From Rhodococcus globerulus NBRC 14531 (GTDB taxonomy: Bacteria; Actinomycetota; Actinomycetes; Mycobacteriales; Mycobacteriaceae), in NCBI RefSeq assembly GCF_001894805.1, contig NZ_BCWX01000002.1, positions 806,001 to 870,000 on the forward strand: a stretch of 64,000 nt of DNA, in the 5' to 3' direction. Both the position numbers and the translations under genes were made by a program. The notes below the pieces were generated by a model. It ran no database searches, had not been told where the DNA came from, and was given only the letters and a program-made list of their open reading frames with translations. Shown piece by piece: positions 44,350 through 59,589 of this stretch. The first letter of the stretch is position 1; the number at the start of each line of letters is the position of its first letter.

Positions 44350-45813
44350 CTAGATTTCGAAAGCATCCTCGAGTCCAGGCTCGTTGTTCAGTGTCTCGGG
44401 TTTCAATTTGAGCAGATAGCAGAAGTACATCGCTCCTACTGTGATCAAGCCGGCCACCACCAATACCGGGGTCAAGGTTCCCGACGCAATCAGTACGAAC
44501 AAGCTGAACAGTATCCACACGAGCGCGGCAATCGCGATCGGCAACTCGAAGCGACCGAGGTCGAACGCGCCCGGCTTGTGATCGAGTCGCCTGCGTACGG
44601 CCAGATAGAGGACGATCGTCATGCCGTAGAGGAGGAACGGAATGATCGTTGATGCCAGGATCAATTCGAGCAATGCGGCACCTGGTAGTGCGATCATCAA
44701 GACGACGCCGATGACAAGAACCAGTATCGTCGCCGGGATCGGTGTCTTGGTACGAGGATTGACTCGCCGCATCAGTCGGTGCGCAGGGAAGCGTGCATCG
44801 CGGGACATCGCAAAAATTATTCGTGACACTCCAGTCATCACGACCAGTCCGGCGGCAAAGAACGCTAATGATATCGCTACCAACAATATTCGCTCCACCA
44901 CTGGACCAAGTTGATCTCGCATGATCGCCGCAACCGGTGAGCCGCTTTCGGTTATCTGGGGGATGTCGTCGATGGCGACGGTCAGCGCGATCAGGAAGAA
45001 CATTCCCAGAATCCCGGCTGCCACTACCGATCCGACGATTGCGAGGGGGACACTCCGAAACGGGTCTCTGGCCTCTTCAGCCATGTTCGCTGCGGCGTCG
45101 AATCCCTGGAGCGTGGCAAAACCCAGAATCATCGCCGCCATCACCCCGCCGCCGACGGAAAAGTAATCGGGAGCGCCTTCGGTGATACCACGCGATGTGA
45201 GGTTGTCGGTTGTGCCGTTTCCCGTCACCACCACAGCAACGATCAGCGCAATGCCGAGCACCACAACAATCGCCAATTCGACACCTACAGCGGCTGAGTT
45301 AACCAGTGCGACAATCCGTGTCGAGGCAATGGCGAGCACAGTCTGAATCAGCAGAATGACTACGGTGATTACTCGTGCCGTGTCCTCGTTCGGTTCCATG
45401 TTGAGCAGGGGCATGAGGCACTGACTGGCAAGCGCATTGTCGATTGCGCTCACACCGATCGCCAACGCCCAGACTGCCAGCCAGCCGAATACCCAGCCCA
45501 CTTTGGGGTTCGCCAGCCGCGACGCCCATTGGTAGGAAGACCCGCTGAGCGGAATGCGGGCTGCGAATTGCGCGTAAACCAACGCCACCAGGATTTGCCC
45601 GCATACTGCCACGACCCACAACCAGATTCCGACTGGTCCTGCGTTGGCAAGGACGGAATCGAAGGTTCCGAAGATGCCGATTACCACGGAGATGAACGCA
45701 AACGAGATCGCGAACATCTGGAATGAGTTCAGAGTTCGCTTCAGTTCGGGTTCGTAGCCTGCGCGTCGTGAGACATTGTCCGCGGTTGGGTCATCTGCCA
45801 GCGACTTTGTCAC
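44350..45813 (-). CDS. APC-family amino acid permease
   Basis: 487 residues with about 12 membrane segments. Conserved pieces include GYEPELKRTLNSFQMFAISFAFISV at the start, LSGSSYQWASRLANPKVGW, and MAEEARDPFRSVPLAI. It belongs to the amino acid/choline transporter branch of the APC superfamily. It stands alone between the HNH gene and the MerR-HEAT operon. Substrate unknown. Confidence 0.88.
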   Translation of the reverse strand: MTKSLADDPTADNVSRRAGYEPELKRTLNSFQMFAISFAFISVVIGIFGTFDSVLANAGPVGIWLWVVAVCGQILVALVYAQFAARIPLSGSSYQWASRLANPKVGWVFGWLAVWALAIGVSAIDNALASQCLMPLLNMEPNEDTARVITVVILLIQTVLAIASTRIVALVNSAAVGVELAIVVVLGIALIVAVVVTGNGTTDNLTSRGITEGAPDYFSVGGGVMAAMILGFATLQGFDAAANMAEEARDPFRSVPLAIVGSVVAAGILGMFFLIALTVAIDDIPQITESGSPVAAIMRDQLGPVVERILLVAISLAFFAAGLVVMTGVSRIIFAMSRDARFPAHRLMRRVNPRTKTPIPATILVLVIGVVLMIALPGAALLELILASTIIPFLLYGMTIVLYLAVRRRLDHKPGAFDLGRFELPIAIAALVWILFSLFVLIASGTLTPVLVVAGLITVGAMYFCYLLKLKPETLNNEPGLEDAFEI

Positions 45814-45985
45814 CGTGGTGACCTCGTATCTCTGAAGAGGTGTCTCGAAGACGTTCTTCGCAGTCCCACGCTAACGCAGGTGGCACGCGGGAGCCGGCCG
45901 GTTCCCCGGAATAACCTGGATAAACGTGATTGGGCCAGGAATATGTTGTGGGGCTTTGTTTTAACCGCATCTCGGCAACTAGCGG

Positions 45986-46999
45986 TTAACGCTGTCTATG
46001 CCTGCGCTCGTGGGTGGATAAAATCGAAGCCGCAGTGGCCGCGATCGTTCGATCGTTGTCCTGGGTCAGCCGGGCGAGAGCTCCGTGTGCCGATGGACCG
46101 GGAATCTCCGCAAGCGCCTGAGTAATTCGCAACCGAGTCGGTGCGTCGGCGATGCTGTCGAGTGTGGTCTGCATCTGATCGACGATCGTGTCGGGTGATG
46201 GCGAGACGTCCGTCAAGACGCCGAGAACTTCGGCAGCCTCGACGTCGAGCTGGCCTGTCAAGACCATTTCGAGGAGGGCAGGGATCGCGTCGACGCTTCC
46301 CCGAGCGCCGAGAGCGAGAGCCGCGCGTGAGCGGACGGTGGCGTCGGAATCCTCGAGTGCTTGTCTCAGATGTGTGGTTGCCTCCGAGGTGTGTACGGCT
46401 GCAATTGCGGCAACGGCGCGGCGTCGGACGTCGACCTCCTGAGACTGGAGGCCGACGGCGAGATTTGTGACTCCCTGACCGGCGGCCCTGGCCAACGACC
46501 ACTGGAGCGCGCCGGCGACATTGAGGTCGTCTTCCGTCAATGCAGCCTCGACCAATGCGTCGATGGGCAACGACGCATTGCCCTCCTGATTCAGGATTGC
46601 TTGTTGACGGCGGGCAGCAAACTCCGACTCGAGCGCACGCAACAGGGTGACCATTCGTAAAACGTCCTCCCACTCCGACGGTGCCGTGGCGTCGACGCGT
46701 TCGAGTTTCGTGAGCAGTTCCTGTTCGGCAGCGATGCGCTGGCGCGTGTGTTTGATGAGATCACCCACCAGATCGGCGGGAGCAAAATCGGGCTCGTCCA
46801 GGGCGCGTCTGGTTTCGTCCAACGAGAGCCCGAGCGTCCTCAGGCTCTCGACATGGAAGAGCCGGCGGATGTCGTCGGCTGAGTACTCGCGGTAGCCGCC
46901 GGACGTGCGGCCGGTGGGCTCCACCAGGCCCAAGGCGTCGTAGTGACGCAACATTCGCGTACTGACACCGGACTGCCGCGAGACTTCGCCGATCAACAT
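45986..46999 (-). CDS. MerR-family regulator with C-terminal HEAT repeats
   Basis: 337 residues. Residues 1-70 are a MerR winged helix (MLIGEVSRQSGVSTRMLRHYDALGLVEPTGRTSGGYREY). A coiled-coil helix follows, and from about 135 a HEAT/PBS-lyase-type helical repeat region (DSDATVRSRAALALGARGSVDAIPALLEMV). The HEAT part probably senses a protein or ligand instead of a metal. It lies 15 bp after a free-standing HEAT protein, under a promoter with a MerR-type long spacer, so the operon is probably self-regulated. Confidence 0.88.
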   Translation of the reverse strand: MLIGEVSRQSGVSTRMLRHYDALGLVEPTGRTSGGYREYSADDIRRLFHVESLRTLGLSLDETRRALDEPDFAPADLVGDLIKHTRQRIAAEQELLTKLERVDATAPSEWEDVLRMVTLLRALESEFAARRQQAILNQEGNASLPIDALVEAALTEDDLNVAGALQWSLARAAGQGVTNLAVGLQSQEVDVRRRAVAAIAAVHTSEATTHLRQALEDSDATVRSRAALALGARGSVDAIPALLEMVLTGQLDVEAAEVLGVLTDVSPSPDTIVDQMQTTLDSIADAPTRLRITQALAEIPGPSAHGALARLTQDNDRTIAATAASILSTHERRHRQR

Positions 47000-47014
47000 C
47001 TTTACTCCTGTTCT

Positions 47015-47671
47015 CTACGTGTGCGGCCCGACGATCGCTACACGCTGCGCCAATTCCATTGCGAGGGTGAAGCCACTGTCGGGATCCAAGTAAAGCCGCT
47101 TAGTTGCAACTGCATGTGCGCGAACCTTTGGATCAGGACTCGTCGCAGCCGCGTCGAGGATCGGTAGGACGGAATCTCCGAGACTCACCAGCGCCCGGCT
47201 GAGGCTGAGGTGCATGTCCGTGTCGCCTCGTCCGAGTTCAGTGGCCAGATCAGCCGCAAGCGCGGCCTCGTCGCCTGGTCGTACGAGTGCCACGGCCGCC
47301 CGCCAGGCGCTGCGCGCGACCTCGTCGTGGTCGTCATGCAGCAGTGCTATCACGGCAGGCCAGGACACAGGGTCCCCGATCTTGGACAGGGTGTGCAGCG
47401 CCTGGCTGCGAGCCTGGACGGAGTCGGATTCGAGCTCGCCGATCAGTCTCGGCACTGTCACTTCGGCGGGGAGTCGGCACAATGCCCAGGTAAGCATGTC
47501 GCGGACAAAGAAATCCGGTTCAACAGCGCATCGATCGACAAGGGCTTCCATCAAGCCCGGATCACCCCGGGTACCTAAAGCGAGTGCAGCCCGAAGCCGG
47601 TCCGACGAATCCGCTGCAGCCAGCGCGTCGACGAGATGGGTATTCGACCCACCGTTATTGGTTGTGTTCAT
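47015..47671 (-). CDS. HEAT-repeat protein
   Basis: 218 residues from ATG 47671, eight bases after AGGAGG; a GTG three codons earlier overlaps the ribosome site. Four or five HEAT-like repeats are visible (RLRAALALGTRGDPGLMEALVD; SVQARSQALHTLSKIGDPVSWPAVIALL; KVRAHAVATKRLYLD). Such repeats bind proteins. It is the first gene of an operon with the MerR-HEAT regulator, whose own repeats resemble it, suggesting a common origin or direct contact. Confidence 0.82.
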   Translation of the reverse strand: MNTTNNGGSNTHLVDALAAADSSDRLRAALALGTRGDPGLMEALVDRCAVEPDFFVRDMLTWALCRLPAEVTVPRLIGELESDSVQARSQALHTLSKIGDPVSWPAVIALLHDDHDEVARSAWRAAVALVRPGDEAALAADLATELGRGDTDMHLSLSRALVSLGDSVLPILDAAATSPDPKVRAHAVATKRLYLDPDSGFTLAMELAQRVAIVGPHT

Positions 47672-47694
47672 GACAACCACCTCCTTCGTCGACC

Positions 47695-47725
47695 ATTTGA
47701 GTGCTTGTCACTGTGTCAAGGTCAA
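47695..47725 (-). promoter_or_regulatory. MerR-type promoter with 19-bp spacer and central palindrome
   Basis: Read on the minus strand: a -35 TTGACC, a 19-base spacer, and a -10 TCAAAT. A near-perfect inverted repeat CTTGACAC-A-GTGACAAG (one mismatched pair; 47704-47720) starts at the last base of the -35 box and covers most of the spacer. This is the architecture that MerR activators untwist. It precedes the HEAT/MerR-HEAT operon by 24 bases. Confidence 0.7.
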
Positions 47726-47915
47726 GCCCGTTGTCGGTAGTCGTTGATGACCGTGGTGGAAAACCTGTACGACGGTCATCTGGCTCCAGATTCGAGTTGT
47801 TCGACGGCCGGCATTCTCGGCGCGAAATGCGTGCAGAGGTCGCGTACGCACTTGAGGCAATGAATGCACTCACGTAGTCCTGCAACGGAGCGATGGAAAA
47901 CTGCGCGAGCCGGTA

Positions 47916-48122
47916 GTGATAGTTATCGAAGCGCCGAACAGCCAATCTGCATTGATTGTCTCTCATGTGGTGGACCACAGCAGGAGCGAAGAATTGGTTG
48001 CCACGGACCAGGCGGTGCTGGTGGATCTCTTGGCGGACGGAGACGCAGACGAACTCGAGTTCACAATCGTTGGATGCTCTGTTTTTGCCGCGACGGCAAT
48101 CGAGCACTACAGCGCGGGTTGA
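47916..48122 (+). CDS. Small hypothetical protein (68 residues)
   Basis: GTG start, weak ribosome site. The translation (MIVIEAPNSQSALIVSHVVD, later LLADGDADELEFTIVG) has the composition of a real acidic protein. No family recognised. It could also be the remnant of a longer gene, since the region on both sides has no gene and shows signs of decay. Confidence 0.35.
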   Translation: MIVIEAPNSQSALIVSHVVDHSRSEELVATDQAVLVDLLADGDADELEFTIVGCSVFAATAIEHYSAG

Positions 48123-48736
48123 CTACTGACGCTGATGGCCTCGTGCCTGGCACTCTCAACTTCGCGTGGACATTGGGGGGTATTGTCGCGAGATGGTCGC
48201 GCGGTCGCCGGTTCGCGTCGAGCACCTCGTCGACCGACGACATAGACGCTCGGAGTTCCGCTTCGAGGCAGGTTTTGGCTTTGGTCGAGGTTCGAGATGA
48301 TCGCTTGCGTGTCTGCCGCGCCGCTCGGTCAGTTGGGTCGATCGTTTAGTTGGGTGATTGCCGGCAAGGGGTTGCGGAGTCTAGGTTCTGCTGTCTCACT
48401 GTTCTGCTGTCTCACTACTGAAAATTTCAGCGGTACTCGACTTGTGAGTTGCCCCGAACTTACAGTTAATCATTAGCTCCGGCCGCGGAATTTGATTTGT
48501 GACGGAAATTGAGCGGAGCTTCTGCACTGTCTGAGCGTCCAGGGCGAATCACCGATCAGAGACAGTCTCTTGCAGTGCAAATTGCCCTGATCTGTTGGGA
48601 AACGAGAGGTGCGTCCATCAACAATGGCGTTATGTCGGTTACGATTTCTCGATGTAGTTCTCCCTCGGGTAGCCGAATCTGCTTGCCGAGGTGGATAAGG
48701 CGGAAGCGTGGATGATTTATCTCTCTGGCGGCAAGG
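48123..48736. other. Gene-free stretch with a 16-bp tandem duplication
   Basis: No convincing gene is visible. GTTCTGCTGTCTCACT occurs twice head to tail (48385-48400 and 48401-48416). The frames here are short and their composition is not coding-like. The stretch separates the HEAT/MerR operon from the first R gene. Confidence 0.6.
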
Positions 48737-48760
48737 AATCTGTATCTGCTGGTCGAGATT
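48737..48760. promoter_or_regulatory. Palindromic element AATCT-N14-AGATT, copy 1
   Basis: First of four copies in the window. It lies 59-82 bases before the start of the first R gene, in its promoter region. Inner bases share TATCT and GGT with the other copies. A site for an R-type regulator is likely but unproven. Confidence 0.6.
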
Positions 48761-48818
48761 CTTTAATGTCGGATGCTAAAATCGGCGTAGTGCCCAGGTA
48801 TCCGTGAGGAGGTGTGCA

Positions 48819-49130
48819 GTGGCGTTGGAGTCTCAGTCGCATTCACTGCGCGGTGTTTACGGGATCTCGGTGATGTCGGAGCTATCCGGAGTCGGGCCTC
48901 AGACGTTGCGTTTGTACGAGCGGCGGGGGTTGTTGACGCCTACTCGCACTGGTGGTGGAACGCGTCGGTACAGCGAGTCAGATTTGGAGACTTTGCGTCG
49001 TATTACCGGGTTGGTCGATGACGGGGTCAATTTGGTTGGTGTGCGGTTGATTCTTTCGCTCGAGGCGGAGAATTCGGTGCTTGCGGCGCGGATTGCTCAG
49101 TTGAGTGAATCTGCCGACAGCCTTGCTTGA
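48819..49130 (+). CDS. HspR/MerR-like regulator, R copy 1
   Basis: 103 residues from GTG 48819, six bases after GGAGG. The winged helix reads GVYGISVMSELSGVGPQTLRLYERRGLLTPTR, followed by GGTRRYSESDLETLRRITGLVDDGVNLVGVRLIL, as in HspR-type MerR proteins, and a short coiled coil (LSLEAENSVLAARIAQL). A near twin lies at 56638 and a broken third copy at 57729. A degraded X gene converges on its 3' end. HspR proteins repress chaperone genes; here the targets are unknown. Confidence 0.87.
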   Translation: MALESQSHSLRGVYGISVMSELSGVGPQTLRLYERRGLLTPTRTGGGTRRYSESDLETLRRITGLVDDGVNLVGVRLILSLEAENSVLAARIAQLSESADSLA

Positions 49131-49139
49131 TTGAACACG

Positions 49140-49319
49140 CGATTTGCTGGAAGTCTGCGTCTGCAACGATCTTGTTTTCCTCGGACACAAGGATTTTCGT
49201 CGTTATGTCGACCGCGTCCGTGAGCGGTGGTTGTGCGGTTCGGTAAGAAGCTCCGTCGATACGCGGTCGGTGCGGGATTGAAAGAACCGCGGACCGCCCG
49301 TGTTCGGGTGAAATTCTGG
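49140..49319 (-). pseudogene. X-family gene remnant, copy 1 (frameshifted)
   Basis: Two minus-strand frames together match the intact X protein at 57813. The first gives PNTGGPRFFQS and DRVSTELLTEPHNH; after a frameshift, the second gives LTDAVDITTKILVSEENKIVADADFQQIA. X itself reads VRVFQTNIESIPDTLLGEAA, then LVDAFDSAL and GNKIVADADFGDMA. The N-terminal half is missing. As in the other two copies it points tail-to-tail at an R gene. Confidence 0.65.
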
Positions 49320-49359
49320 CGTCGGATGCCGGTGGGGGAGCTTTTGATCGATTGTGGCC

Positions 49360-49401
49360 GGAAACGCCCCACCGCGTGAGTCTGCGAGGTGGGGCGTTTC
49401 C
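49360..49401 (-). terminator. Strong hairpin after the formaldehyde-dehydrogenase-like gene
   Basis: A perfect 14-bp stem: GGAAACGCCCCACC (49360-49373) with GGTGGGGCGTTTCC (49388-49401), 14-base loop. It lies 58 bases beyond the minus-strand gene's stop and marks the border with the X remnant. Confidence 0.75.
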
Positions 49402-49458
49402 AGACTGTGCGACCACCTACTGCGTGACATGCGAAGCCGAGCAGGTGCTCGCAGGTTG

Positions 49459-50646
49459 CTACAGGTGAGGCTTCAGTTGAATCTTGACTGCTCCATCCTG
49501 CTTTTTCTGAAAGATCTCGTACGCGTGCGGTGCCTGTTCCAATGGCAGTTGGTGGGTTGCGAAGGTGTCGACTCCGAGGGGATCGTCGTCCGTCAGGAGC
49601 GGAATGATGTCGTTGACCCACTTCTTGACGTTGGCTTGGCCCATTCGCAGTTGAATCTGCTTGTCGAACAAAGTCATCAGAGGAAGTGGGTCGATCTTTC
49701 CGCCGTACACGCCGATCACCGAGATCGTTCCGCCGCGTCGGACGATGTCAATTGCCGAATACAACGCGCCTAAACGGTCGAGACCGGCGGTGCGCATTGC
49801 CGGTGCGGCAATCGCGTCGGGAAGTAGTCCGATGAATTGCTGCGCGAGCTTCGCGATTGGCGACCCGTGAGCCTCCATGCCGACAGCGTCGATCACGGAA
49901 TCCGTTCCGCGGCCGTCGGTGAGAGCGCGGACGGCGTCGCCGATCTTGTCGCCGTAGTCGTCGAGGTTGAGTGTTTCAACGCCGCGCTTTTCCAGGCGTG
50001 CGAGGCGTTCGGGTACCCGGTCGATGCCGATGACTCGAAACCCTTTGTGTTGAGCAATGCGAGCGGCCATATCTCCGATCGGTCCGAGGCCGAGGATCGT
50101 CACGGAACCACCCGGTGGCACTGCGGCGTACTCAACCGATTGCCAGGCCGTCGGCAGCACGTCGGAAAGGTAGACGAAGCGTGAATCGTCAGGTCCTTCA
50201 GGTACTTTGATATGAGTGAACTGCGCTTGTGGGACCCGCAAGTACTCAGCTTGTCCGCCTGGTACCGAGCCGTAAAGTTCGGAGAATCCGAACAATGCCG
50301 CGCCGGTGCCTTGGTCACGGACCTGCGTCGTTTCGCACTGCGTGTACAAGCTGGAGTTGCACATGAAGCAGTTGCCGCATGAAATTTGGAAGGGGATGAC
50401 GACACGGTCACCGACTTCGAGATCAGTGATGTCGGATCCGATCTCCTCGACAATCCCGATGGGCTCGTGACCGAGGATGTCCCCCGGGTTCATGAACGCG
50501 CCCAAGGTCTCGTACAGGTGTAGGTCGGATCCACAGATGTTTGTGGTCGTGACTTTGATGATGGCGTCGGTGGGTTCGACGATGGTGGGATCGGGAACTG
50601 TTTCGACGCTGATCTTCCGCTTACCTTGCCATGTAACTGCGCGCAC
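49459..50646 (-). CDS. Zinc-dependent alcohol/formaldehyde dehydrogenase family protein
   Basis: 395 residues from GTG 50646, after GAGAAGAGG; an upstream in-frame ATG lacks a ribosome site. Catalytic zinc ligands are in NICGSDLHLYE and GHEPIGIVEEIG; the structural zinc loop is CGNCFMCNSSLYTQC. The NAD-binding loop is ILGLGPIGDMAARIA. The length and long insertions resemble glutathione-independent formaldehyde dehydrogenases. It probably oxidises an aldehyde or alcohol during stress; the catalase gene lies upstream in the same direction. Confidence 0.88.
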   Translation of the reverse strand: MRAVTWQGKRKISVETVPDPTIVEPTDAIIKVTTTNICGSDLHLYETLGAFMNPGDILGHEPIGIVEEIGSDITDLEVGDRVVIPFQISCGNCFMCNSSLYTQCETTQVRDQGTGAALFGFSELYGSVPGGQAEYLRVPQAQFTHIKVPEGPDDSRFVYLSDVLPTAWQSVEYAAVPPGGSVTILGLGPIGDMAARIAQHKGFRVIGIDRVPERLARLEKRGVETLNLDDYGDKIGDAVRALTDGRGTDSVIDAVGMEAHGSPIAKLAQQFIGLLPDAIAAPAMRTAGLDRLGALYSAIDIVRRGGTISVIGVYGGKIDPLPLMTLFDKQIQLRMGQANVKKWVNDIIPLLTDDDPLGVDTFATHQLPLEQAPHAYEIFQKKQDGAVKIQLKPHL

Positions 50647-50747
50647 GTTGATCGACCTCTTCTCGCTGGAATGTTGTCGCCGTTCGCCTGCCCTAAACGA
50701 CTGAAGTGCAAACAAAATCGGCCGGGCCATCAGTGGCTCGTCACGTG

Positions 50748-50764
50748 CCCTGGAGTCTCCAGGG
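50748..50764. promoter_or_regulatory. Perfect 17-bp palindrome before the dehydrogenase gene
   Basis: CCCTGGAG-T-CTCCAGGG, 102-118 bases before the dehydrogenase start. Either an operator or part of the transcript end of the catalase gene. Confidence 0.4.
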
Positions 50765-50773
50765 CTATGGGTT

Positions 50774-50797
50774 TACATGGGGAACCATCCCCATGTA
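50774..50797 (-). terminator. 10-bp inverted repeat between catalase and dehydrogenase genes
   Basis: TACATGGGGA and TCCCCATGTA pair perfectly around ACCA. It is 113 bases after the catalase stop. It may end the catalase transcript or serve as an operator; no U-tract on the expected side. Confidence 0.4.
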
Positions 50798-50909
50798 CGA
50801 AGAAGAACGACGGAGAATGGCTCCTCTGCAGTTACAGAACTGATCTTCCTCGGCGGTGCAGCGTGACTGCCGATTTCGGCCGCACCGGGAGCCGCTCACT
50901 GACAACTTG

Positions 50910-53057
50910 TCAGAGTCGGCTCCATACTCGATGCGACTTGAGCAGTGTGACCACTTGTTCAAGTACCGATACGCTGTCCTCGCCGGTCACGACGCCGTCC
51001 GCCGCAGTGAGTTCTGCGGTTTCGAGAAGTTCCGTCGCGTCATTCCATGCGCCGATGGCCTTGCCGTGCCGGAACATTTCCGACAGGAGGATATTCACTC
51101 GTGGGTCTGCAGGTGCCCCGGCGAGCAGGAGAGCGTCGAATTCGATCGATCGTGCGGTATCGAAGGTGCGCGAGACGGGGACAGTGACCGAGTCCGAGAC
51201 CAATTCACCGCCGTGGGGGCCGATCACCAATGGCACCATTGCGTCGGCTGCTATAGCTGACACCGCTGCGGTGACTGCGGCGAGGTCGGAGTTCTCATCG
51301 GCGACGATGCCGATCACCCGGCCGGTGACCGGCCATTGCGCGCCGATCTGGGACAGGGCAGGGCTAGGTGTCGGTGCGTCGTCGAACGGGACGGACGGCT
51401 TCGGGGCCGGGAGGCCAAGGCCCGCGGCGACCTTCGCGCACAGGTCGGGATCGATGTTGGCGATCACACCGAGGGCTCGTTCCTTGATCGTTTGTTCGTA
51501 GCACTTTCCTAGTTCAAAGGTGTACGCCTGTGCCACATGGTCTTGTTCGATGACAGTGAGACTGCTGTAAAACAGGCGCGCCTGTGAGTAGTGGTCGTCG
51601 AATGTTGCTGGCGCGCCGCGAAGTTTTGTAGCGGCCTCGAGCGCTACCGGTACTTCGACGAATGCGCCGACTTCTGCGCCGGCCATGAAGGGACAACCGC
51701 CGTCGAGGGAGTTCGGCTTGTAGGGGGCGACACCGGAATGTACTGCGCTTTGGTGCATTCCGTCGCGGAACGTGTCGTTGACCGGTGCGTGTGGGCGGTT
51801 GATCGGGATCTGACCGAAGTTGGGTCCACCCAGCCGGCTGATCTGGGTGTCCAGGTAGGAGAACAGGCGGGCCTGTAGTAGCGGGTCGTCGGTGACGTCG
51901 ATACCGGGCACGAGGTGCCCTGGGTGGAAGGCGATCTGTTCGGTTTCGGCGAAGAAATTGGTCGGGTTCGCGTTGAGCGTCATCACCCCGATCGGTTGAA
52001 CCGGGGCCAGTTCTTCAGGAACGAACTTGGTGGGATCGAGGAGGTCGATGCCCTCGAACATCTGCTCGGGGGTGTCGGGGAAGATTTGGATGCCCAGTTC
52101 CCATTCCGGGTACGCACCGGCTTCGATGGCGTCGGCGAGATCGCGGCGGTGGAAGTCGGGATCGAATCCGTTGATCAGTTGTGCTTCTTCCCATACCACC
52201 GAGTGCACGCCCAGGCGGGGCTTCCAGTGGAACTTCACGAGCGAGGTTTCTCCGTCGTCGTTGAGAAGCCGGAAGGTGTGAACGCCGAATCCTTCCATCA
52301 TTCGATACGACCGGGGGATACCGCGGTCGGACATGTTCCAGAGGGTGTGCGCGGTGGCTTCGGTGTGGAGGGAGACGAAATCCCAGAACGTGTCGTGTGC
52401 GCTTTGTGCTTGCGGGATCTCGCGGTCGGGATGTGGTTTCGCGGCATGGATGATGTCGGGGAATTTGATTCCGTCTTGGATGAAGAAGACCGGGATGTTG
52501 TTGCCGACCAGGTCGAATGTTCCTTCGGCTGTGTAGAACTTGGTGGCGAAGCCGCGAGTGTCTCGGACCGCGTCTGCGGAGCCGCGTGAGCCGAGCACTG
52601 TGGAGAAGCGGACGAATACGGGGGTTTCGACTCCTCTGCGGAGGAAGCCTGCTTTAGTCACTTTTTCAGCGGCACCGAAGGCGCGGAACACTCCGTGGGC
52701 GCCGGCGCCGCGGGCGTGGACGACGCGCTCGGGGATCCGCTCGTGATCGAAGTGGGTGATCTTTTCCCGTAAGTGGTGGTCCTGGAGCAGAGTTGGGCCG
52801 CGTTCTCCGGCTTTGAGGGAGTGGTCTGTGTCGTAAAGGCGGGCGCCCTGTGCGGTGGTCAGATATTCGCCCTGCTGCGAGCGCGCCGACGGTGGTCCTT
52901 CGACAGCTGCGGCTGTCGCAGTGCGCAGTTGAGGGGAGCGTTGATCGGCCTTCGGGGGCAACGGAATGCGTGGCTTGACCGGTTCCTCCAGCGGCGGAGT
53001 CGCCTGGCCGGGCGCTCCGGAGATCGGAGGGCTCTTTTTAGATATTTTTTTGGACAC
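50910..53057 (-). CDS. katE: Large-subunit catalase with C-terminal glutaminase-like domain
   Basis: 715 residues from GTG 53057, after GAGGAG. The catalase core begins around residue 80: [14 protein letters not shown] has the haem-side histidine, [12 protein letters not shown] the asparagine, and [14 protein letters not shown] the haem-ligand tyrosine. Residues 560-715 form the DJ-1/class-I glutaminase-like domain found in large catalases ([32 protein letters not shown]). It removes hydrogen peroxide. The N-terminal 60 residues are Lys/Pro-rich. Confidence 0.93.
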
Positions 53058-53407
53058 GATGACTCCTCGATTCTCTGTCAGAAACTTGTCAGAAATATGT
53101 GTCGTGGAGAGAGCGCGGGAGCGCACTTTGCGGTAGGGCTTTTTCCGTTCCCGATGAAGTGTCGGTACGGGGTGAACCTCGACGAATGGATCAATCGCGG
53201 AAATTTTGGCTCGCCCGCATTTCACTCCGTCAGCGATGCGTGTTGCTGTTCAACCCGGTGGTACGGGCCAGTGATGTTTTGTGGATCAGCGAATATCGTT
53301 GGAATCCCCGAACGCTGCCTATTTCTGATCATCACGCACGTCGGGTACGGTGCGGTAGCTTGTCCAAGAAAACCTTCCTGCGGTGCGGGTATCGCCTCTG
53401 GTCCGCT
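53058..53407. other. Gene-free stretch before katE
   Basis: 350 bases upstream of the catalase start. CTTGTCAG and TCTGTCAG form an imperfect direct repeat near 53077-53093 and may belong to the promoter. No gene or RNA recognised. Confidence 0.5.
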
Positions 53408-53590
53408 CTATCGCGAGTGTGGATCGGTTGCAGGTCCTTGTGTGGTGGCGCCGCCCTCGTCGGACCAGGTTTCGCCGCCGGAAGGATCCGATTGCACGTC
53501 CCCGACTGCGTTTTCGCTGCTGGGATCTGTGTGGACAGTCTCGATGTCGTCGGGTGGACCCTCGCCTGTACGTGCTTGCTTGTCGGTCAA
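53408..53590 (-). CDS. Small acidic hydrophilic protein
   Basis: 60 residues from TTG 53590, chosen because GGAGG lies four bases before it; ATG 53608 would give 66 residues but has no ribosome site. The C-terminal GGETWSDEGGATTQGPAT matches, from memory, a conserved tail (SDEGGATPEGPA type) of small actinobacterial proteins of unknown role. Disordered by composition. Confidence 0.6.
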   Translation of the reverse strand: MTDKQARTGEGPPDDIETVHTDPSSENAVGDVQSDPSGGETWSDEGGATTQGPATDPHSR

Positions 53591-53728
53591 AGTACCTCCG
53601 GGGTTCATCTCGGCTCGTCGGCCGAGGGGAATCGACTATCGTTGCTGCCGTCCATGTTTCGCGCCTGGCATTCAGTTATTCGAGATGCGACGATGCTCGA
53701 CGTGTCTCATGCGCGAAGTGGCTGAAGT

Positions 53729-53998
53729 TCACATCGGGTCCTCGTGAGTGAGAGCCCGGTAGCTTTTTGCGCCAGCTCGGTCCACTGCTGCTTTCACGAC
53801 GGCGAAAACTGCTCCCTGGAGCGCCGCCGCGATCAGGACTTCTTTGCTCGATCTGTTGAGATCTTGCGGGTCGGGGGCTTTTTCGTCATGCCCGACGCGC
53901 TTCCAGATCTGTTGAAACACCGCTCCAGCGGCGATTCCACCAATCACGCTCGTTGCGAGGGAAAGCGGTTTGTACATTGCTTTGGTTATTGCGCTCAT
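53729..53998 (-). CDS. DUF4235 membrane protein
   Basis: 89 residues, ATG after GGAGGAATTCACACA. SVIGGIAAGAVFQQIWKRV and LIAAALQGAVFAVVKAAVDRAGA are the two characteristic segments of DUF4235, a small actinobacterial membrane family often found with stress genes. Function unknown. Confidence 0.85.
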   Translation of the reverse strand: MSAITKAMYKPLSLATSVIGGIAAGAVFQQIWKRVGHDEKAPDPQDLNRSSKEVLIAAALQGAVFAVVKAAVDRAGAKSYRALTHEDPM

Positions 53999-54196
53999 TG
54001 TGTGAATTCCTCCATTGATGTCGTTCTGTTAGAAGGAAGCGATCGCTGCGGCGCCGAGCGATGTTCTGCCATGATCGAACCCGGCAACAAGCGTTGCTGC
54101 CGTTGGAAGATGCGATGTTCGCGTTGCGTCACGGTTCCGGAGTTCTCCTCACTTATCGCCGGTAGCTATCCGGCTGAACGCCGTACAACGGCGGGT

Positions 54197-54348
54197 TCAG
54201 TCTTGGCGCGCTTTGTCGGCTGACTCTTGGCTGATGAGTAAGTCTTCGGTGAGGTGTGGATGGTTGTATGCGCTCAGTCGTTTCTGCGGCACTGCAGCCA
54301 CGTTCGCGCCGTCGTCAGTGCTCAGTCCCGGTATCGTGAATCGGACAT
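54197..54348 (-). pseudogene. dps remnant (ferritin-like DNA-protection protein)
   Basis: The start region after GAGAGGAAGACGT-ATG gives, after a one-base shift, FTIPGLSTDDGANVAAVPQKRL, then SAYNHPHLT, the usual N-terminus of actinobacterial Dps. It then jumps to EDLLISQESADKARQD, which resembles the far C-terminus. About 100 codons, with the ferroxidase residues, are missing. Two lesions (frameshift at the start, large internal deletion) make this a dead gene. Confidence 0.75.
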
Positions 54349-54435
54349 ACGTCTTCCTCTCTTGAGATGTCGAACTGTTCGCGCGAATGTGTGCGTGCAG
54401 TTGCGGCATCATCGCCAAAGATCGTCTCTGTCTGT

Positions 54436-54579
54436 TCAGCCGATGCTTGCGGCCAATTCCTTCCTCATGGGGTCCCCGAACATCGGGGCGATCCGGAACT
54501 CGAGCTCCCGGTGTTCACAGTTGAACTTCCGGGGTTTGATCGCGCCGGGCCGAGCGGACTGGATGTCGATCGCTGTCAT
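54436..54579 (-). CDS. Y-family small protein, copy 1 (47 residues)
   Basis: ATG 54579 follows AGGAGG after three bases. The protein starts MTAIDI and ends IAPMFGDPMRKELAASIG. A second protein of 48 residues at 57220 shares MTAIDI, the glycine at 12, and the end pattern IA-(F)G-P-EL-IG. Two such short frames keeping the same start, length and end argue for a real gene family. Palindromic elements lie 58 and 213 bases upstream. No function recognised. Confidence 0.6.
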   Translation of the reverse strand: MTAIDIQSARPGAIKPRKFNCEHRELEFRIAPMFGDPMRKELAASIG

Positions 54580-54636
54580 CGTCCTCCTGAAGCCAAGTGT
54601 GCAGTAGCGGCAGTATGTGCAGTTTCAGGCGCTCTA

Positions 54637-54660
54637 AATCTATATCAGGAGAAGTAGATA
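54637..54660. promoter_or_regulatory. Palindromic element AATCT-N14-AGATA, copy 2
   Basis: 58 bases upstream of the Y copy 1 start (minus strand). The left part AATCTATATC is identical to copy 4. Confidence 0.55.
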
Positions 54661-54791
54661 ATTGGCAAGCCTGGACGGGCGAAACTGGAGGCGAAAACAT
54701 GGTTTGCATCACCAGTTTTTGGGCCGTTGCCAGATGAAATGCTTGTTTGTGTCGCATTTGGGGGGCGAAACCTCCCCTTCCCCTTCCGTGA

Positions 54792-54815
54792 AATCTGTGT
54801 CTTACGGGATAGATT
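54792..54815. promoter_or_regulatory. Palindromic element AATCT-N14-AGATT, copy 3
   Basis: 132 bases to the right of copy 2. The inner TACGGG is shared with copy 4. No gene start is close on the right side; it may act with copy 2 on Y copy 1. Confidence 0.55.
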
Positions 54816-55547
54816 TATTGCTGTCGATTGATGAGCTCCGGGTCGCAGATTGTGCCTGAAACGTCTGCAGTGACATTGAAGCGGTGCTGCTTGATGCCCT
54901 GCCGGTCGTGCAGTGCACATCGAGATTGGGGCGAGAAACGTGTTGCGCAATGGATTATCCGACAGTTTCACTGAGTAGGAAGAGTCTGCTGCGGAGCTGG
55001 CGGTGGACCCCAATTTCCACGCGGGTTAGATGTTTCCGGCTCACCGATACAGCCGAACGTTATCTGGTGAAAAACACTCGCAATTGGGAACGTAGTCGCT
55101 GCGTAATCGCTTGCGCAGTCATAGGTTCGGCACTGATTGTCGGCGGTAGCCGAATGTCGACGCCACTCGCTGTAGTTGACACATCGACTGTGAGAGGTGA
55201 GCGGTGCCAGGGGCCGGGATTCTCCTCTGTGGCGAGTTAGTGCAGTCGGATGTGCGGTCCTTCGGAGTCGATATGGGCGATCGACAAGGCTGCGGGATCC
55301 GGCGCGGCCGCTACTGGGTGAGACGCTCGACTAGGCGGTAAGACTCGCGGCGGTGTGTTCTCGGGTGCCCGGCACCGGTGGCATTCGTCGATCGCCATAT
55401 GTGGCGGGCTCACTATGTGCCGGCAGTTCGTCGGCCCGGATGATGGAGTGGGCTGGGAGTTCGAGTATTCTTCGATCCCGGTCGGGAGTCGGCGCTCCGA
55501 CCTGCGCGTAGATGATTTTTATGGTGACACTGCGGGTGGAAGGAAGA

Positions 55548-56294
55548 ATGGCAGTGGAGACATCGGAGAAGTCGGTTCTGGATGTTTATGGGCGGATTTC
55601 GCAGGTGGCGCGGACGGTGCACGGAACGCTTACCGGTGGTGTTATGGCACCGTCGGAGGTGCTCGAGGAGGTCGCCGAGGCTGCGGTGAAACTGCTCCAT
55701 GGTGTCGATCATGCGGGGATCACCTTGGTGCGCCGCCATCGTCCTGGACATCGTCCTGAGCATTTCGAGTCGGCTGAAGCGACCGGTAGAGTGCCGACGC
55801 GGTTCGACGAATTGCAGCACGAGCACGGTGAGGGGCCGTGTTTCGATGCGATCTGGTCTCGTCAGACGGTGCGGATAGTCGACGTGATTTCGGATTCGCG
55901 GTGGCCCGCGTTTATGACTGCGGTGTGGGAGCAGACTCCGGTTCGGTCTGTGTTGTCGATCCAGCTTTATACCGATGGCGACGAACTCGGCGCGTTGAAC
56001 CTGTTCTCGGACAATGCCGGCGGGTTCGACGCCGAAACGGAAGAGCAGGCGATCAATCTGGCTACCCATGCGGCCATTGCGCTTTCGAGTGCACGTCGCG
56101 GTGAGCAGTTTCGCAGTGCGCTGGCCTCACGTGATCTGATCGGCCAAGCCAAGGGCATGCTCATGGAACGTTTCGACGTCGATGCCATAGCGGCGTTTCA
56201 GATGCTTCGAACGCTCTCGCAGGAGATGAACGTGTCCGTGCTCGAGTTGGCGAGAAGGGTGGTCCTCCGCGAGGTTCCGGTTGGTAACGAGTAA
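55548..56294 (+). CDS. GAF-ANTAR domain regulator
   Basis: 248 residues from ATG 55548, after GGAAGGAAGA. A GAF domain covers residues 20-185 (VDHAGITLVRR, GEGPCFDAIW, VRSVLSIQLY, GALNLFSDNAGGF). An ANTAR RNA-binding domain ends the protein (SRDLIGQAKGMLMERFDVDAIAAFQMLRTLSQEMN). ANTAR proteins bind paired hairpins in nascent RNA and prevent termination; the GAF domain senses a ligand or redox state. Its target in this stress region is unknown. Confidence 0.9.
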   Translation: MAVETSEKSVLDVYGRISQVARTVHGTLTGGVMAPSEVLEEVAEAAVKLLHGVDHAGITLVRRHRPGHRPEHFESAEATGRVPTRFDELQHEHGEGPCFDAIWSRQTVRIVDVISDSRWPAFMTAVWEQTPVRSVLSIQLYTDGDELGALNLFSDNAGGFDAETEEQAINLATHAAIALSSARRGEQFRSALASRDLIGQAKGMLMERFDVDAIAAFQMLRTLSQEMNVSVLELARRVVLREVPVGNE

Positions 56295-56417
56295 CGCCGA
56301 ATATGGGAAGTGTTTCGCTGGGAAATGTTGTGGCAGAGCAGTTTCGCTGCTCTCTGCCTGATGGATGCGTGGCCGGCGACCCATCGGGCAGGGAGTGCGC
56401 CTAGTTCGGCCCCGTTG

Positions 56418-56654
56418 GTTCGATTCTTTCAGGCCGAAATCGACGGCGTATCGGATCAACGTCTCGCCGAAGCGACACACCAAAGGCTCGTCGACGCTTT
56501 CGATTCTGCCCTCCATCACCTTGAGGCTCTCGGCAACAAGTTGTTGCCGATGTTGACTTCGGGAGTATCAGCAGCCCCGCGACGTCACTCCCAGCTGATG
56601 TCGCCGGTCTCGACAATCAAAGCTGAGCGTCGGCCGATTAGTGCATCTGATTGA
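56418..56654 (+). pseudogene. X-family gene remnant, copy 2 (5'-truncated)
   Basis: The frame carries VRFFQAEIDGVSDQRLAEAT, then LVDAFDSALHHLEALGNK, clearly the C-terminal half of X (VRVFQTNIESIPDTLLGEAA, LVDAFDSALTRLEADGNK). Sequence before it does not match X, and no start or ribosome site is present. Its 3' end overlaps that of R copy 2 on the other strand, as in the other pairs. Confidence 0.7.
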
Positions 56655-56928
56655 TCCGCGTCGCAAGAGCTGCGTTCTCGGCCTCGAGTGAGAGGATCAA
56701 TCCGATTCCGACTAAGTTCACTCCGTTGGCGATCAATTCGCTAATGCGACGTAGCGTGGTCAGATCCGCTTCGCTGTAGCGGCGGGTTCCGCCATCGGTG
56801 CGCGTCGGGGTCAACAACCCTCTTCGGTCGTAGAGCCTTAAGGTCTGCGGTCCGATGCCGGACAACTCCGACATCACCGAGATCCCGTACACGCCGCGCA
56901 GTGAGGGCGGTTGACGTTCGAAAGTCAC
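56638..56928 (-). CDS. HspR/MerR-like regulator, R copy 2
   Basis: 96 residues from GTG 56928, preceded by ATGAGGAGGTTCACC; the ATG in that sequence is part of the ribosome site, not the start. It is nearly the same as R copy 1: SLRGVYGISVMSELSGIGPQ, TLRLYDRRGLLTPTR, GGTRRYSEADLTTLRRI, GVNLVGIGLILSLEAENAAL. It ends NQMH. The palindromic element copy 4 lies 71 bases upstream. Convergent with an X remnant. Confidence 0.87.
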   Translation of the reverse strand: MTFERQPPSLRGVYGISVMSELSGIGPQTLRLYDRRGLLTPTRTDGGTRRYSEADLTTLRRISELIANGVNLVGIGLILSLEAENAALATRINQMH

Positions 56929-56998
56929 GGTGAACCTCCTCATCGTAATCGGCTGATCGTAATGGGTTGTCACGCGACCTTAACATCTGTGACCATAA

Positions 56999-57022
56999 AA
57001 TCTATATCTACGGGTGTAGATT
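56999..57022. promoter_or_regulatory. Palindromic element AATCT-N14-AGATT, copy 4
   Basis: It lies between R copy 2 (minus strand, 71 bases away) and Y copy 2 (plus strand, 198 bases away). A tighter inner repeat ATCTAC-GGGT-GTAGAT is centred inside it. Confidence 0.6.
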
Positions 57023-57219
57023 TGGCTCAGTCGGCACTGGCTTACCTCCAGAGTTTCCCGCATTTCAGCTGTTCAGGGCGTGCATCAGTCTTTTCGGGAA
57101 AGGTCTCGCCTAAGTTGTTGCTCTTTCGGGCATGCGAATTATCTGTGTTGGCCGATGTAGATTTAAAGAACGTGGATGCTTAGACGGGCGCTCGTACATC
57201 CCTTCACCTCGCGAACGCG

Positions 57220-57366
57220 ATGACGGCGATCGACATCCCGTTCGCTCATAGCGGCGACATTGCCTCGGGCAGTTCCACCGTGAACACGCCGGAACCCGCG
57301 CTAGGAATCGCCGCCAAGATATTCGGGCATCCCGTATCAGAAGAGTTGACCGTGGATATCGGCTGA
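57220..57366 (+). CDS. Y-family small protein, copy 2 (48 residues)
   Basis: MTAIDIPFAHSGDI at the start and IAAKIFGHPVSEELTVDIG at the end match Y copy 1 in position and length. No clear ribosome site precedes the ATG, so this copy may be silent. Divergent from R copy 2 across the palindromic element. Confidence 0.5.
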   Translation: MTAIDIPFAHSGDIASGSSTVNTPEPALGIAAKIFGHPVSEELTVDIG

Positions 57367-57728
57367 GCGGGTGGCCGAAACAACACGATGGCCGGTTTTT
57401 GCGGCTAACGCCATATCTCGCTGATCCCGGGTTCGCAGGTCCAAATCTTCGCAGGTCCAAATCTCTGAGGGGTTATCGCTCGAACGTTGTTTGATGGCTT
57501 TGAGAGCGGATCGACCGTCGGGGTCTCCATAGCGTGTCCGGGCGGGTGTGTTTCCCGATTTCGCCCGACCGGACGGCAGTCTCACGGAGAAGTGCCCGTT
57601 GAATGGCAAGTGCCCGTTGAATGGCAAAGTGTCGCCTATCGGTTCAGTCCTGCCCAATGCTCCTCCGCAACAGAAGTTTTGGAACCATGAAGGCAACTCG
57701 ATGCCCACACCGACATGGGCCCAGCACT
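57367..57728. other. Gene-free stretch with two short tandem duplications
   Basis: TTCGCAGGTCCAAATC is doubled at 57432-57463 and AAGTGCCCGTTGAATGGC at 57590-57625. No supported gene. A faint trace of the missing R copy 3 N-terminus may lie at its right end. Confidence 0.5.
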
Positions 57729-57846
57729 GAGGTGATCGATGACGGAATCACGCTCGTTGGAATCGAACGATTTCTTGCTGGAAGCCGAGAATTCGATTCT
57801 GGCCGCGATCTCTCAGCTGAGCGACACGACTGACGACCCGGCTTGA
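57729..57846 (+). pseudogene. R-family gene remnant, copy 3
   Basis: EVIDDGITLVGIERFL in one frame and LEAENSILAAISQLSDTTDDPA-stop in another match the C-terminal half of R copy 1 (GLVDDGVNLVGVRLIL, SLEAENSVLAARIAQLSES). A frameshift separates the two, and the DNA-binding part is missing. It converges on, and overlaps the end of, the intact X gene. Confidence 0.65.
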
Positions 57847-58244
57847 GCTGGTGCCATGACATCGGTTGATGCGGTTGTATCAGGCCGTGCCATGTCACCG
57901 AAGTCTGCGTCCGCGACAATCTTGTTACCGTCGGCTTCGAGGCGGGTGAGTGCGGAATCGAACGCGTCTACGAGCCATGGGTCTGCAGCCTCGCCGAGCA
58001 GTGTGTCCGGTATCGACTCGATGTTGGTTTGAAAGACACGAACCGTCCAGGATCCACTTGTATCGGGCTCGTCCGAGAGGCCCCGGCCGGTGTTGGTGGC
58101 CAGGACGTAGCGGTTGTATTCGAGGTCGACGCGGATGGCGTAGTCACCGGCAAGGTTGACCACGTTGGCGGGGCGATGGGTAGCGGTGGCCAATGCGATC
58201 AGTGCGTCGTTGTACTTTTCCGAGAATTTCTTCGTAAGGGGCAT
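57813..58244 (-). CDS. X-family protein (unknown), intact copy
   Basis: 143 residues, ATG 58244 after AGGACAGCC. I do not recognise the family. It starts MPLTKKFSEKYNDALIALAT, has a mid-region likely rich in strands (AIRVDLEYNRYVLATNTGR; WTVRVFQTNIESIP), then a helix LVDAFDSALTRLEADGNK, and an Ala/Ser-rich tail. No signal or membrane segment; probably cytoplasmic. Two remnants exist at 49140 and 56418, always tail-to-tail with an R gene. A 22-bp palindrome precedes it. Confidence 0.75.
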   Translation of the reverse strand: MPLTKKFSEKYNDALIALATATHRPANVVNLAGDYAIRVDLEYNRYVLATNTGRGLSDEPDTSGSWTVRVFQTNIESIPDTLLGEAADPWLVDAFDSALTRLEADGNKIVADADFGDMARPDTTASTDVMAPAQAGSSVVSLS

Positions 58245-58268
58245 GGCTGTCCTACCTGTCTAGGCGTG

Positions 58269-58290
58269 GCCGTTGCAATATTGCAATGGC
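58269..58290. promoter_or_regulatory. 22-bp palindrome upstream of X
   Basis: GCCGTTGCAAT and ATTGCAATGGC are mirror images with one mismatch; the core TTGCAATATTGCAA is perfect. It is 25 bases before the X start codon, so it is a likely operator or autoregulatory site. Confidence 0.6.
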
Positions 58291-58510
58291 TGATGAAGAC
58301 AGTTCGTTGCCGCGGCTTGACGAGGAACTATGAGTGATCCTATCTCAGGTAGACCGGATACACCCATGCTGCCCATCTTTGGGTGGTCAGAGATGCAGGT
58401 GTTCAGAGATGCGCTGTGGCGCTCAACCATGCACTCGTAGACCTACTCGAAGATGACGGCTACGCCCGTGGCGACGAGTTCCTCTCTGTTGCCTGTGCAT
58501 TGTGGACACC

Positions 58511-58759
58511 ATGACCACACCGTTTACCGTCACCTACGTCGAGCATCCCGGCCCGGCCGCTGACAGCGGCTTGTGGTATCACCCGAACTTCGAGCCGAAA
58601 CTGTTCAAGACGCTCATGGAAAGGCCTGGCGATCCGGCCGGTCTCGCACGACGTGGAATAGACGCGGTCTGCGCCCGGCTCGGACGACAAGCAAACGGGC
58701 CGGCAAAGCGCCCGAGTCCGTCCATCGGTCCTGTGAATTGCGATAACGATCTGAATTGA
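58511..58759 (+). CDS. Small hypothetical protein (82 residues), possibly a fragment
   Basis: ATG 58511 overlaps the stop of a short coding-like frame ending LEDDGYARGDEFLSVACALW. The protein starts MTTPFTVTYVEHPGPAADSG and ends CDNDLN. No family recognised. The linked short frame before it suggests either two overlapping small genes or one broken gene. Confidence 0.35.
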   Translation: MTTPFTVTYVEHPGPAADSGLWYHPNFEPKLFKTLMERPGDPAGLARRGIDAVCARLGRQANGPAKRPSPSIGPVNCDNDLN

Positions 58760-58931
58760 AGAGTTTGCCGAGCAGACTAGCGTCCAGCGCTCGAAAAGCG
58801 CTGGACCGCAACCCGCGGGGGACATCACTATTTCAGGCCGCGAGACCCGTCTGCGGAATCGTTGAGGTGCATGGCTGTAAATCTGCGCCCGTTGGATATC
58901 GGGGTCCGGCGGCTCAGAGTGTGGCGATCAC

Positions 58932-59351
58932 CTACGGAACGAAAAAGGTTGCGACACCAGGGGTAATCGTTCCGGCCGTAGATAGAACCGCGACTGCGAT
59001 TTGCCCGGTGCCGGTCTGCAGGGTCGCTTCGGCCGGGTATCCGTGCAGTCCGTCAGACAGTCGGGCGGTTCCGGACGTCCCGGTCGACAAGTTCAACCAG
59101 CGCACTTCCGACGAGAGCAGGCACCCCCACCGGCCTTCTTTGCCTCCGGTGATCCTCAGCGTGCCCGCTTGTTCGCCGACCACGGCCACACAGCGGACCG
59201 CGGGTGCGTCGAAGCTGCCATTCGGGTTCCCGTACGGAGCCGGATCGATCTGGAACGGAACGGTGACTGCAGCGGAGGCCGCGGCTACCGGCGCCAGAGC
59301 CGATCCGATCACTACGGACGAGCAGATGGCCAGTCGGCGAACGAGATTCAT
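58932..59351 (-). CDS. Secreted protein of unknown function
   Basis: 139 residues from ATG 59351, after GGAGGG. A classical signal peptide is present (MNLVRRLAICSSVVIGSAL, then APVAAASAAV with a likely AxA cleavage). The mature part has two cysteines (VRCVAVVGEQ; RWGCLLSS) that could pair, and repeated G/T-rich strands. No family recognised; likely exported to the envelope or medium. Confidence 0.65.
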   Translation of the reverse strand: MNLVRRLAICSSVVIGSALAPVAAASAAVTVPFQIDPAPYGNPNGSFDAPAVRCVAVVGEQAGTLRITGGKEGRWGCLLSSEVRWLNLSTGTSGTARLSDGLHGYPAEATLQTGTGQIAVAVLSTAGTITPGVATFFVP

Positions 59352-59589
59352 TACGGTGCCCTCCAGCAGGCGGGAAATTAGGTGTCGCGCCCATCCTTCA
59401 CCCGGACTGCAGTCGTGGCAAGGCGAGTCCGAGCTCTCGGATTGGAGAAGTTGGGTCGCTGGGTTACTGATCTGCCAGGCTCCCGAATTGGTTTCCATCG
59501 CTTCCGAGTGTCGCGTAGGTTAGGTGATTTCCGCTGTTTACCCAGCACTACACCTTTCGTGACGAGACCCTCACCGATACGTCGTTCCA

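Follow-up and report, generated by a model that had tools for sequence, protein, structure and literature searches.

The region described here lies at positions 48,737 to 58,244 of a 64-kb stretch of the genome of Rhodococcus globerulus NBRC 14531 (the window), and it contains several copies of two genes, an HspR-like MerR regulator gene, referred to as R, and the gene of a small protein, referred to as X. DNA profiles of X and R (nhmmer) were built without the window sequences and then run over the 64 kb, and these searches, together with the open reading frames (ORFs) and the MerR_1 domain, recover every R and X copy of the original prediction. The first unit consists of R1 (48819..49130, plus strand), an intact ORF with a GTG start and GAGGAGG ahead of it (MerR_1; nhmmer match 48720-49129, E 2e-101), and X1 (49150..49299, minus strand; E 1.2e-13), a 3' remnant of X that is convergent with R1. 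The second unit is inverted and comprises X2 (56414..56602, plus strand; E 1.3e-38; ORF 56310-56654), a frame-broken 3' remnant of X in which arginine stands for the tryptophan of the WLVDA motif, and the intact R2 (56638..56928, minus strand; ORF with MerR_1; nhmmer match 57034-56618, E 1e-96). The third comprises R3 (57722..57845, plus strand; E 1e-20), a 3' remnant of R, and X3 (57813..58244, minus strand; nhmmer match 58350-57859, E 6.9e-129), an intact ORF encoding a protein of 143 residues that is distantly DUF3000-like. The X3 leader (58245..58350, minus strand), from a TAGGAT -10-like box to the start codon, is defined by the nhmmer alignment and an alignment of the paralogues.

When the remnants are compared at the protein level with dinucleotide-preserving shuffles (n=300 per remnant), 0/300 shuffles reach the observed score in each case (X1, 17.6 bits versus 7.8 for the best shuffle; X2, 54.2 versus 4.0; R3, 12.8 versus 7.3), such that the predicted X1 and X2 matches survive this control. 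The count of three copies is correct for X and for R1, R2 and R3, and a fourth R relic was overlooked, of which the leader and promoter are left and the R body is gone (54779..54882, plus strand; E 1e-6). The window has no fourth X match above inclusion (next best E 0.25) and no fifth R match (next best E 0.067). The copies have indeed decayed differently, as seen from the X and R profile matches: R1, R2 and X3 are intact, and X1, X2, R3 and a Dps gene are decayed. Overlapping 3' ends, which had been predicted for every copy, are found in copy 3, where the R3 homology extends to 57845 and the X3 stop is at 57813; the X homology of copies 1 and 2 ends about 20 and about 35 bp short of the R stop.

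The arrangement of copies 2 and 3 can be understood from a comparison with locus L022 of Rhodococcus sp. ARC_M6, where the gene order is X(+), R(-), Dps-like(+), DUF4235(+) and CsbD(+). The window, taken in reverse, retains this order (DUF4235 gene, Dps remnant, R leader, a 2.84-kb segment, R3 3' end, and X3 with its leader). The DUF4235 gene (53729..53998, minus strand; PF14019, 95.2 bits), which in relatives is part of a Dps-R-X unit, is collinear with L022 and L025. In the Dps remnant (54190..54587, minus strand; blastn to L022, L025, L018 and L023) the start and the upstream region are preserved and most of the coding sequence is gone, tblastn recovering Dps residues 4-34 alone (E 1e-10). 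The 2.84-kb segment (54883..57721) contains a GAF-ANTAR regulator gene (55548..56294, plus strand; PF03861, PF13185), which has 85% DNA identity to the nearest compared relative (genome G017), as well as X2, R2 and a relic of the R2-Dps intergenic region (57196..57366; blastn to L022, L025 and L023), in which tblastn finds no Dps coding sequence. Because both flanks of this segment are collinear with L022 and L025, copy 3 is, as judged from this collinearity, an old DUF4235-Dps-R-X unit split by a segment that bears copy 2, and the copies are nested, not tandem. The inverted orientation of copy 2 fits this arrangement, and R1-X1 is a separate third unit, 7 kb away.

R1 and R2 score above the Pfam cut-off for a MerR-type helix-turn-helix domain (PF13411, 64.6 and 59.8 bits; cut-off 21.6). 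When compared with the NCBIfam model of HspR (NF047375), they reach 96.7 and 95.2 bits, which is under the equivalog cut-off of 105, and the true HspR of this genome reaches 146.1. The identity of R to this HspR is 42%, in agreement with the predicted HspR-likeness, and R ends about 25 residues earlier at the C-terminus. The true HspR, DnaK and DnaJ are encoded together elsewhere in the genome (locus L020), and R is outside this dnaK operon; by these scores and this placement, R is a paralogue of HspR and not HspR itself. In mycobacteria, DnaK is the co-repressor and binds to the C-terminal region of HspR (PMC10415612). R is without this C-terminal tail, the region which DnaK binds in HspR. 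The operator of HspR, HAIR, is CTTGAGT-N7-ACTCAAG; with up to four mismatches allowed, no such site is found at the promoters of R1 or R2, and in L020 one HAIR-like site with three mismatches is located about 150 bp upstream of dnaK.

None of the Pfam or NCBIfam families matches X above the cut-off, and no toxin family match is seen either. The score of X3 against DUF3000 (PF11452) is 14.1 bits, under the Pfam gathering threshold of 25, and weak DUF3000 matches (E 0.5 or better) are seen for 9 of 31 X proteins; the real DUF3000 protein of this genome scores 249.4 bits. In a comparison of the X profile with DUF3000 (hhalign) the probability is 80, with E 1.4e-5 over 65 columns at 34% identity, and the WLVDA motif is common to both. 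The second AlphaFold model of X, calculated from 28 sequences, has block pLDDT values of 75-96 for residues 1-110 and of about 40 beyond (pTM 0.67), with two helices, five strands and one helix. X is a small alpha+beta protein and a distant relative of DUF3000. Searches of the PDB with the folds of two models give no match at E 0.001 (best E 0.092 and 0.22, weak cystatin-type and other folds), and therefore no function is read from the X folds; with the X profile, the best match among PDB sequences has E 0.8. The X leader is conserved among the paralogues and has a short inverted repeat near the ribosome-binding site; a structured RNA in this leader is not claimed (RNAalifold z -1.8, covariation near zero). 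Three X paralogues (L018 at ~8293, L019 at ~10252 and L082 at ~6716) have ATT at the aligned ATG start, which is either a rare start codon or a loss of the start.

The pairing of R and X was examined in 28 Rhodococcus genomes, counting X at E 1.3e-13 or better (48 matches in 23 of the genomes) and R as matches other than the true HspR (72 in 24 of the genomes); weaker X matches, mostly the DUF3000-like half alone, are excluded from the pairing count. The X genes are divided into 30 closer ones (E < 1e-40) and the 18 remaining, more distant ones, which include X2 of the window. R is found within 5 kb of all 30 closer X genes, and the pair is convergent in 27 of these, X3 being entered as tandem because its partner R3 is too short to score. 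Conversely, an X gene lies no more than 5 kb from 41 of the 72 R genes. X homologues elsewhere thus do adjoin R, and the prediction passes this second check as well. In the convergent relatives the gap, measured between the R and X profile matches and not between stop codons, varies from -7 to +108. X and R are co-directional in G013, G020, G218 and a Tsukamurella plasmid, and in the latter two they follow CsbD and DoxX (the G218 names being given by similarity). Outside the genus, a search of 298 sampled genomes of the order yields one further clear X (G218, E 1.7e-25), and the remaining matches beyond the genome of the window have E 4.6e-6 or weaker and concern the C-terminal half of X. In three of four plasmid regions examined an annotated MerR gene adjoins X. 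From these comparisons, R-X is a conserved two-gene unit in much of Rhodococcus, mostly convergent; the predicted tail-to-tail geometry is therefore the common form, from which the co-directional pairs depart.

Upstream of R, an inverted repeat with the core AATCT-N14-AGATT is observed. In 577 kb of loci, which are partly related, the core with spacing 14 occurs 28 times (two of these inside R genes) versus 0.0 in mononucleotide shuffles, with four occurrences for spacings 15 and 16 together and zero for spacings 8-13 and 17-21. Of 43 regions upstream of R, each up to 326 nt long, 35 have the core when at most one mismatch is allowed, versus 0.22 for mononucleotide shuffles. TGNTANNNT, an extended -10 element, follows the core at one fixed distance in 20 of the 43 regions, with the right arm 16 bp ahead of the predicted -10 box. 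In the genome of the window the core occurs nine times, six of these at most 5 kb from an R gene, and twice with spacing 13. A mismatch-tolerant search in this genome (G000), G017 and G218 gave the full 24-bp palindrome, WATCTRY-N10-RYAGATW, which differs in its letters from HAIR. It occurs at 80 sites in the 28 genomes versus one for the reversed control (13 versus 0 in G000), and 58 of the 80 are left in the genus when G000 and G017 are omitted. The palindrome is present in 22 of the 24 genomes with R and in none of the four without R (G006, G014, G018 and G019; Fisher p 7e-4). Among 75 of the 80 sites listed, 41 are at most 1 kb and 57 at most 5 kb from an R gene, about 0.4% being expected within 5 kb; 14 are more than 20 kb from R, some of which are chance-like, and others lie beside this genome's own DoxX and flavin-reductase genes. 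Six exact pairs of palindromes are 141-155 bp apart. Stress-type genes that have the palindrome upstream include those of Dps-like proteins, DoxX, a SigB/F-type sigma factor and a flavin reductase. The genes nearest to the palindromes (up to ~450 bp) encode R, Dps-like proteins, DoxX, a sigma-70-family factor, a methyltransferase and a flavin reductase, and the palindrome is also located upstream of the CsbD-DoxX-X-R genes of the Tsukamurella plasmid and of the similar G218 locus.

In the window there are four palindromes and one core-only site. A pair with a distance of 155 bp is formed by the Dps-proximal site at 54637..54660 and the R-proximal site at 54792..54815. Upstream of R2 the palindrome at 56999..57022 has TGTTAAGGT next to it at the common spacing, and the second site of this pair (57140..57163) is 141 bp away. 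Upstream of R1 the core at 48737..48760 is 16 bp ahead of a TAAAAT -10-like box, with TGC before the box. The presence of the 24-bp palindrome near R and stress genes is new in this analysis; titles and abstract starts in the searched literature reveal no paper on the palindrome or on the R-X pair. Elsewhere (G000:C2:36904, G017:C1:2118421 and also G023), a palindrome is 9 bp upstream of an ORF that by eye resembles holo-ACP synthase; its inner bases are off-consensus, and it may be a chance occurrence.

The genes linked with R-X encode Dps-like, CsbD, DUF4235 and DoxX proteins, SigB/F-type sigma factors and a catalase. Locus genes were called with a simple codon-usage finder; a check against family libraries or annotation covers part of the named genes and the annotated plasmid genes. 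In L026-L029 the R-X pair lies between OtsA-like and Dps-like genes, with a SigB/F-family sigma factor further on (families checked in L026). R is not HspR, the window has no DnaK match, and the linked genes are those just named. Matches of OtsA, SigB, CsbD and DoxX are also not found in the window (tblastn, E 0.01). As to the wider neighborhood, positions 45001-47727 and 58931-59407 of the window match stretches of G017 that are 70 bp apart, and the 11.2 kb in between (47728-58930) is missing at this place in G017, where the matches of its genes are at C1:3431-3452 kb. At 45986-47680 a MerR regulator fused to HEAT repeats adjoins a HEAT-repeat-only gene, in a stretch matched in G017 and other species, and G001 and G011 likewise have the MerR-HEAT gene and a catalase gene within 20 kb.

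In illuminated R. erythropolis, two proteins annotated as 'hspR' are reported to be increased 3.3- and 4.5-fold at 122 h, SigB 3.9-fold and Dps 2-fold, with Dps unchanged at 40 h (PMC9416670). Because four close relatives (G001, G002, G012 and G022) have two R/HspR matches each, one of these two 'hspR' proteins may be R. More generally, an HspR annotation in proteome data of Rhodococcus may denote R, which is another regulator. SigF-type promoters have the form GTTT-N13-18-GGGT. Ahead of 25 X genes, and ahead of seven stress genes with 2 to 9 examples of each, this motif has 0 matches, leaving membership of a SigF regulon without support. Some gene names were dropped: at E 0.001 Pfam gives no match for a "ferritin-like" gene of the big-genome group or for an "SRPBCC" gene next to DoxX, and at E 1e-10 NCBIfam gives none for an "RsbW-like" gene.

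Taken together, R and X probably form a stress-response module of Rhodococcus that is dispersed and present in multiple copies, with R as the regulator and X as its linked partner. In the proposed mechanism R would bind the 24-bp palindrome, which is quite likely, and would control its own gene and the stress genes. By analogy with HspR, R would act most likely as a repressor that is released under stress, although this is favored only slightly over other modes of action. X, being beside R as DnaK is beside HspR, might modulate R, a step for which the chances are a little below even. In the window, the old DUF4235-Dps-R-X unit would have been split by the segment with the second X-R unit, the third R-X unit being 7 kb off. 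A more far-reaching version is tentative and, as a whole, rather doubtful: an HspR-derived system in which the DUF3000-like X replaced DnaK as the stress-sensing partner, with its own 24-bp operator that is sometimes paired at ~14 helical turns (possibly with looping), and with several semi-independent copies sharing one regulon across the chromosome and plasmids. The unnamed gene pair becomes in this way a testable regulon with a candidate operator, a regulator family and a partner in a stress-tolerant genus, and a first functional setting is suggested for a distant relative of DUF3000, a family that is sparsely covered in the searched literature.

Several observations weigh against this module. 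The compared genomes are related, not independent, such that the significance of the counts is overstated, and the sites of G000, G017 and G218 with which the palindrome was refined were in part also among those counted. The bare core has 81 sites genome-wide with spacing 14 versus 28 with the control spacing 13 in the 28 genomes, and the core is seen once in each of three genomes that have no R. In 8 of the 43 R upstream regions, including that of the 3449-kb copy of G017, there is no core with at most one mismatch, G025 and the incomplete G016 (74% complete) have an R-like gene and zero palindromes, and the site of R1 itself falls short of the full palindrome. In one close pair the sites are separated by 95 bp, outside the range of 141-155 bp. 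Classical MerR activators have their operator within the 19-bp spacer between -35 and -10, and a palindrome just upstream of the -10 box fits an activator too. Concerning the pairing, R1 and R2 are intact without X, X3 is without an intact facing R, and 14 of the 18 more distant X genes are without R nearby (R being nearby in 4 of 18).

It is conceivable, as a serious though lesser possibility, that X is itself the stress effector and adjoins R since R regulates X or since the locus is a stress cluster. These R-less distant X genes would agree with this, as would the conserved leader that X has of its own and, in G004 and G024, a palindrome in the interval that separates X from the second R, 164 and 312 bp away from where X starts, a position that would suit X as a target. 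That R adjoins each of the 30 closer X genes, on chromosomes and plasmids and in several settings, suits a functional pair. It is less probable that the palindrome belongs to another regulator, with R as a target and the R-X pair as a downstream output. The palindrome was found by position and not by binding, and the R-like genes without a palindrome in G025 and G016, as well as the eight upstream regions without the core, point in this direction; its absence in all four R-less genomes, the fixed spacing to the -10-like box of R in 20 of 43 regions and its retention with R in distant Tsukamurella-type loci argue against this reading, and MerR-type regulators commonly control their own gene.

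The regulator-partner module is also preferred over the view that a two-gene unit whose 3' ends are antisense-coupled was recently and repeatedly duplicated in place; this view, predicted from the partial copies within 9.5 kb, is now very improbable. R1 is up to 92% identical to copies of other species versus 76% to R2, the synonymous distance (dS) between R1 and R2 being 1.76. The genome has five R-family genes in addition to the true HspR, and four X genes with two remnants; in the X tree two further X genes of this genome each group with a G017 paralogue (100/99 and 99/93), X3 groups weakly with the 3449-kb copy of G017 (86/82), and in the R tree R1 and R2 have no resolved placement. Because the X paralogues pair with those of G017 and R1 is nearer to other species than to R2, at least some paralogues are, by these phylogenetic comparisons, older than the split from G017, and the copies are old paralogues and not a recent triplication. 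The nested structure and the 3' overlap in one of three copies also oppose local duplication, and X1 and X2, although starting at profile columns 308 and 309, have no shared junction, with no similarity upstream. The pairwise ratios of nonsynonymous to synonymous change (dN/dS) are 0.06-0.09 for R1, 0.09-0.19 for R2 (one pair saturated) and 0.11-0.24 for X3, and from these ratios the R1, R2 and X3 families are under purifying selection over their history, which is not proof of present function.

Least probable of all is a selfish mobile or toxin-antitoxin-like addiction cassette moving among the chromosome and plasmids, since, despite X on 15 plasmid records (13 Rhodococcus, one Tsukamurella and one Prescottella equi), up to five X per genome and recombinase or insertion sequence genes near some copies (partly annotated, partly by eye), no transposase is seen travelling with the R-X pair, R and X are lost separately and X is without a toxin family match. 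Serine-recombinase-like genes or fragments are seen by eye at L017:3093-5739, near the R-X copy of contig C9, and at L081:9435-9707, near an R-X copy on the 490-kb contig of G017, which has two R-X copies with similar surroundings. A broken R-like fragment with an internal stop is found at G000:C9:49117-49275 (L015), 5.5 kb from the R-X pair of C9 and ~0.7 kb from a palindrome.

When compared with known systems, the region of the window resembles the Dps/SigB-type stress locus of Rhodococcus erythropolis and its kin, in which the R-X pair is found among OtsA-like, Dps-like and SigB/F genes, and differs from it in that the neighborhood is fragmented in the window. DUF3000 (PF11452) aligns with the C-terminal half of X, including WLVDA; it is longer (~190 versus ~130 residues), its N-terminal half is different, and X is below the Pfam cut-off. 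With HspR (NF047375), R shares the MerR-type helix-turn-helix domain, the stress setting, a likely autoregulation and 42% identity, whereas R scores below the cut-off, has a shorter C-terminus, is outside the dnaK operon, has another inverted repeat, is paired with X and is present in multiple copies.

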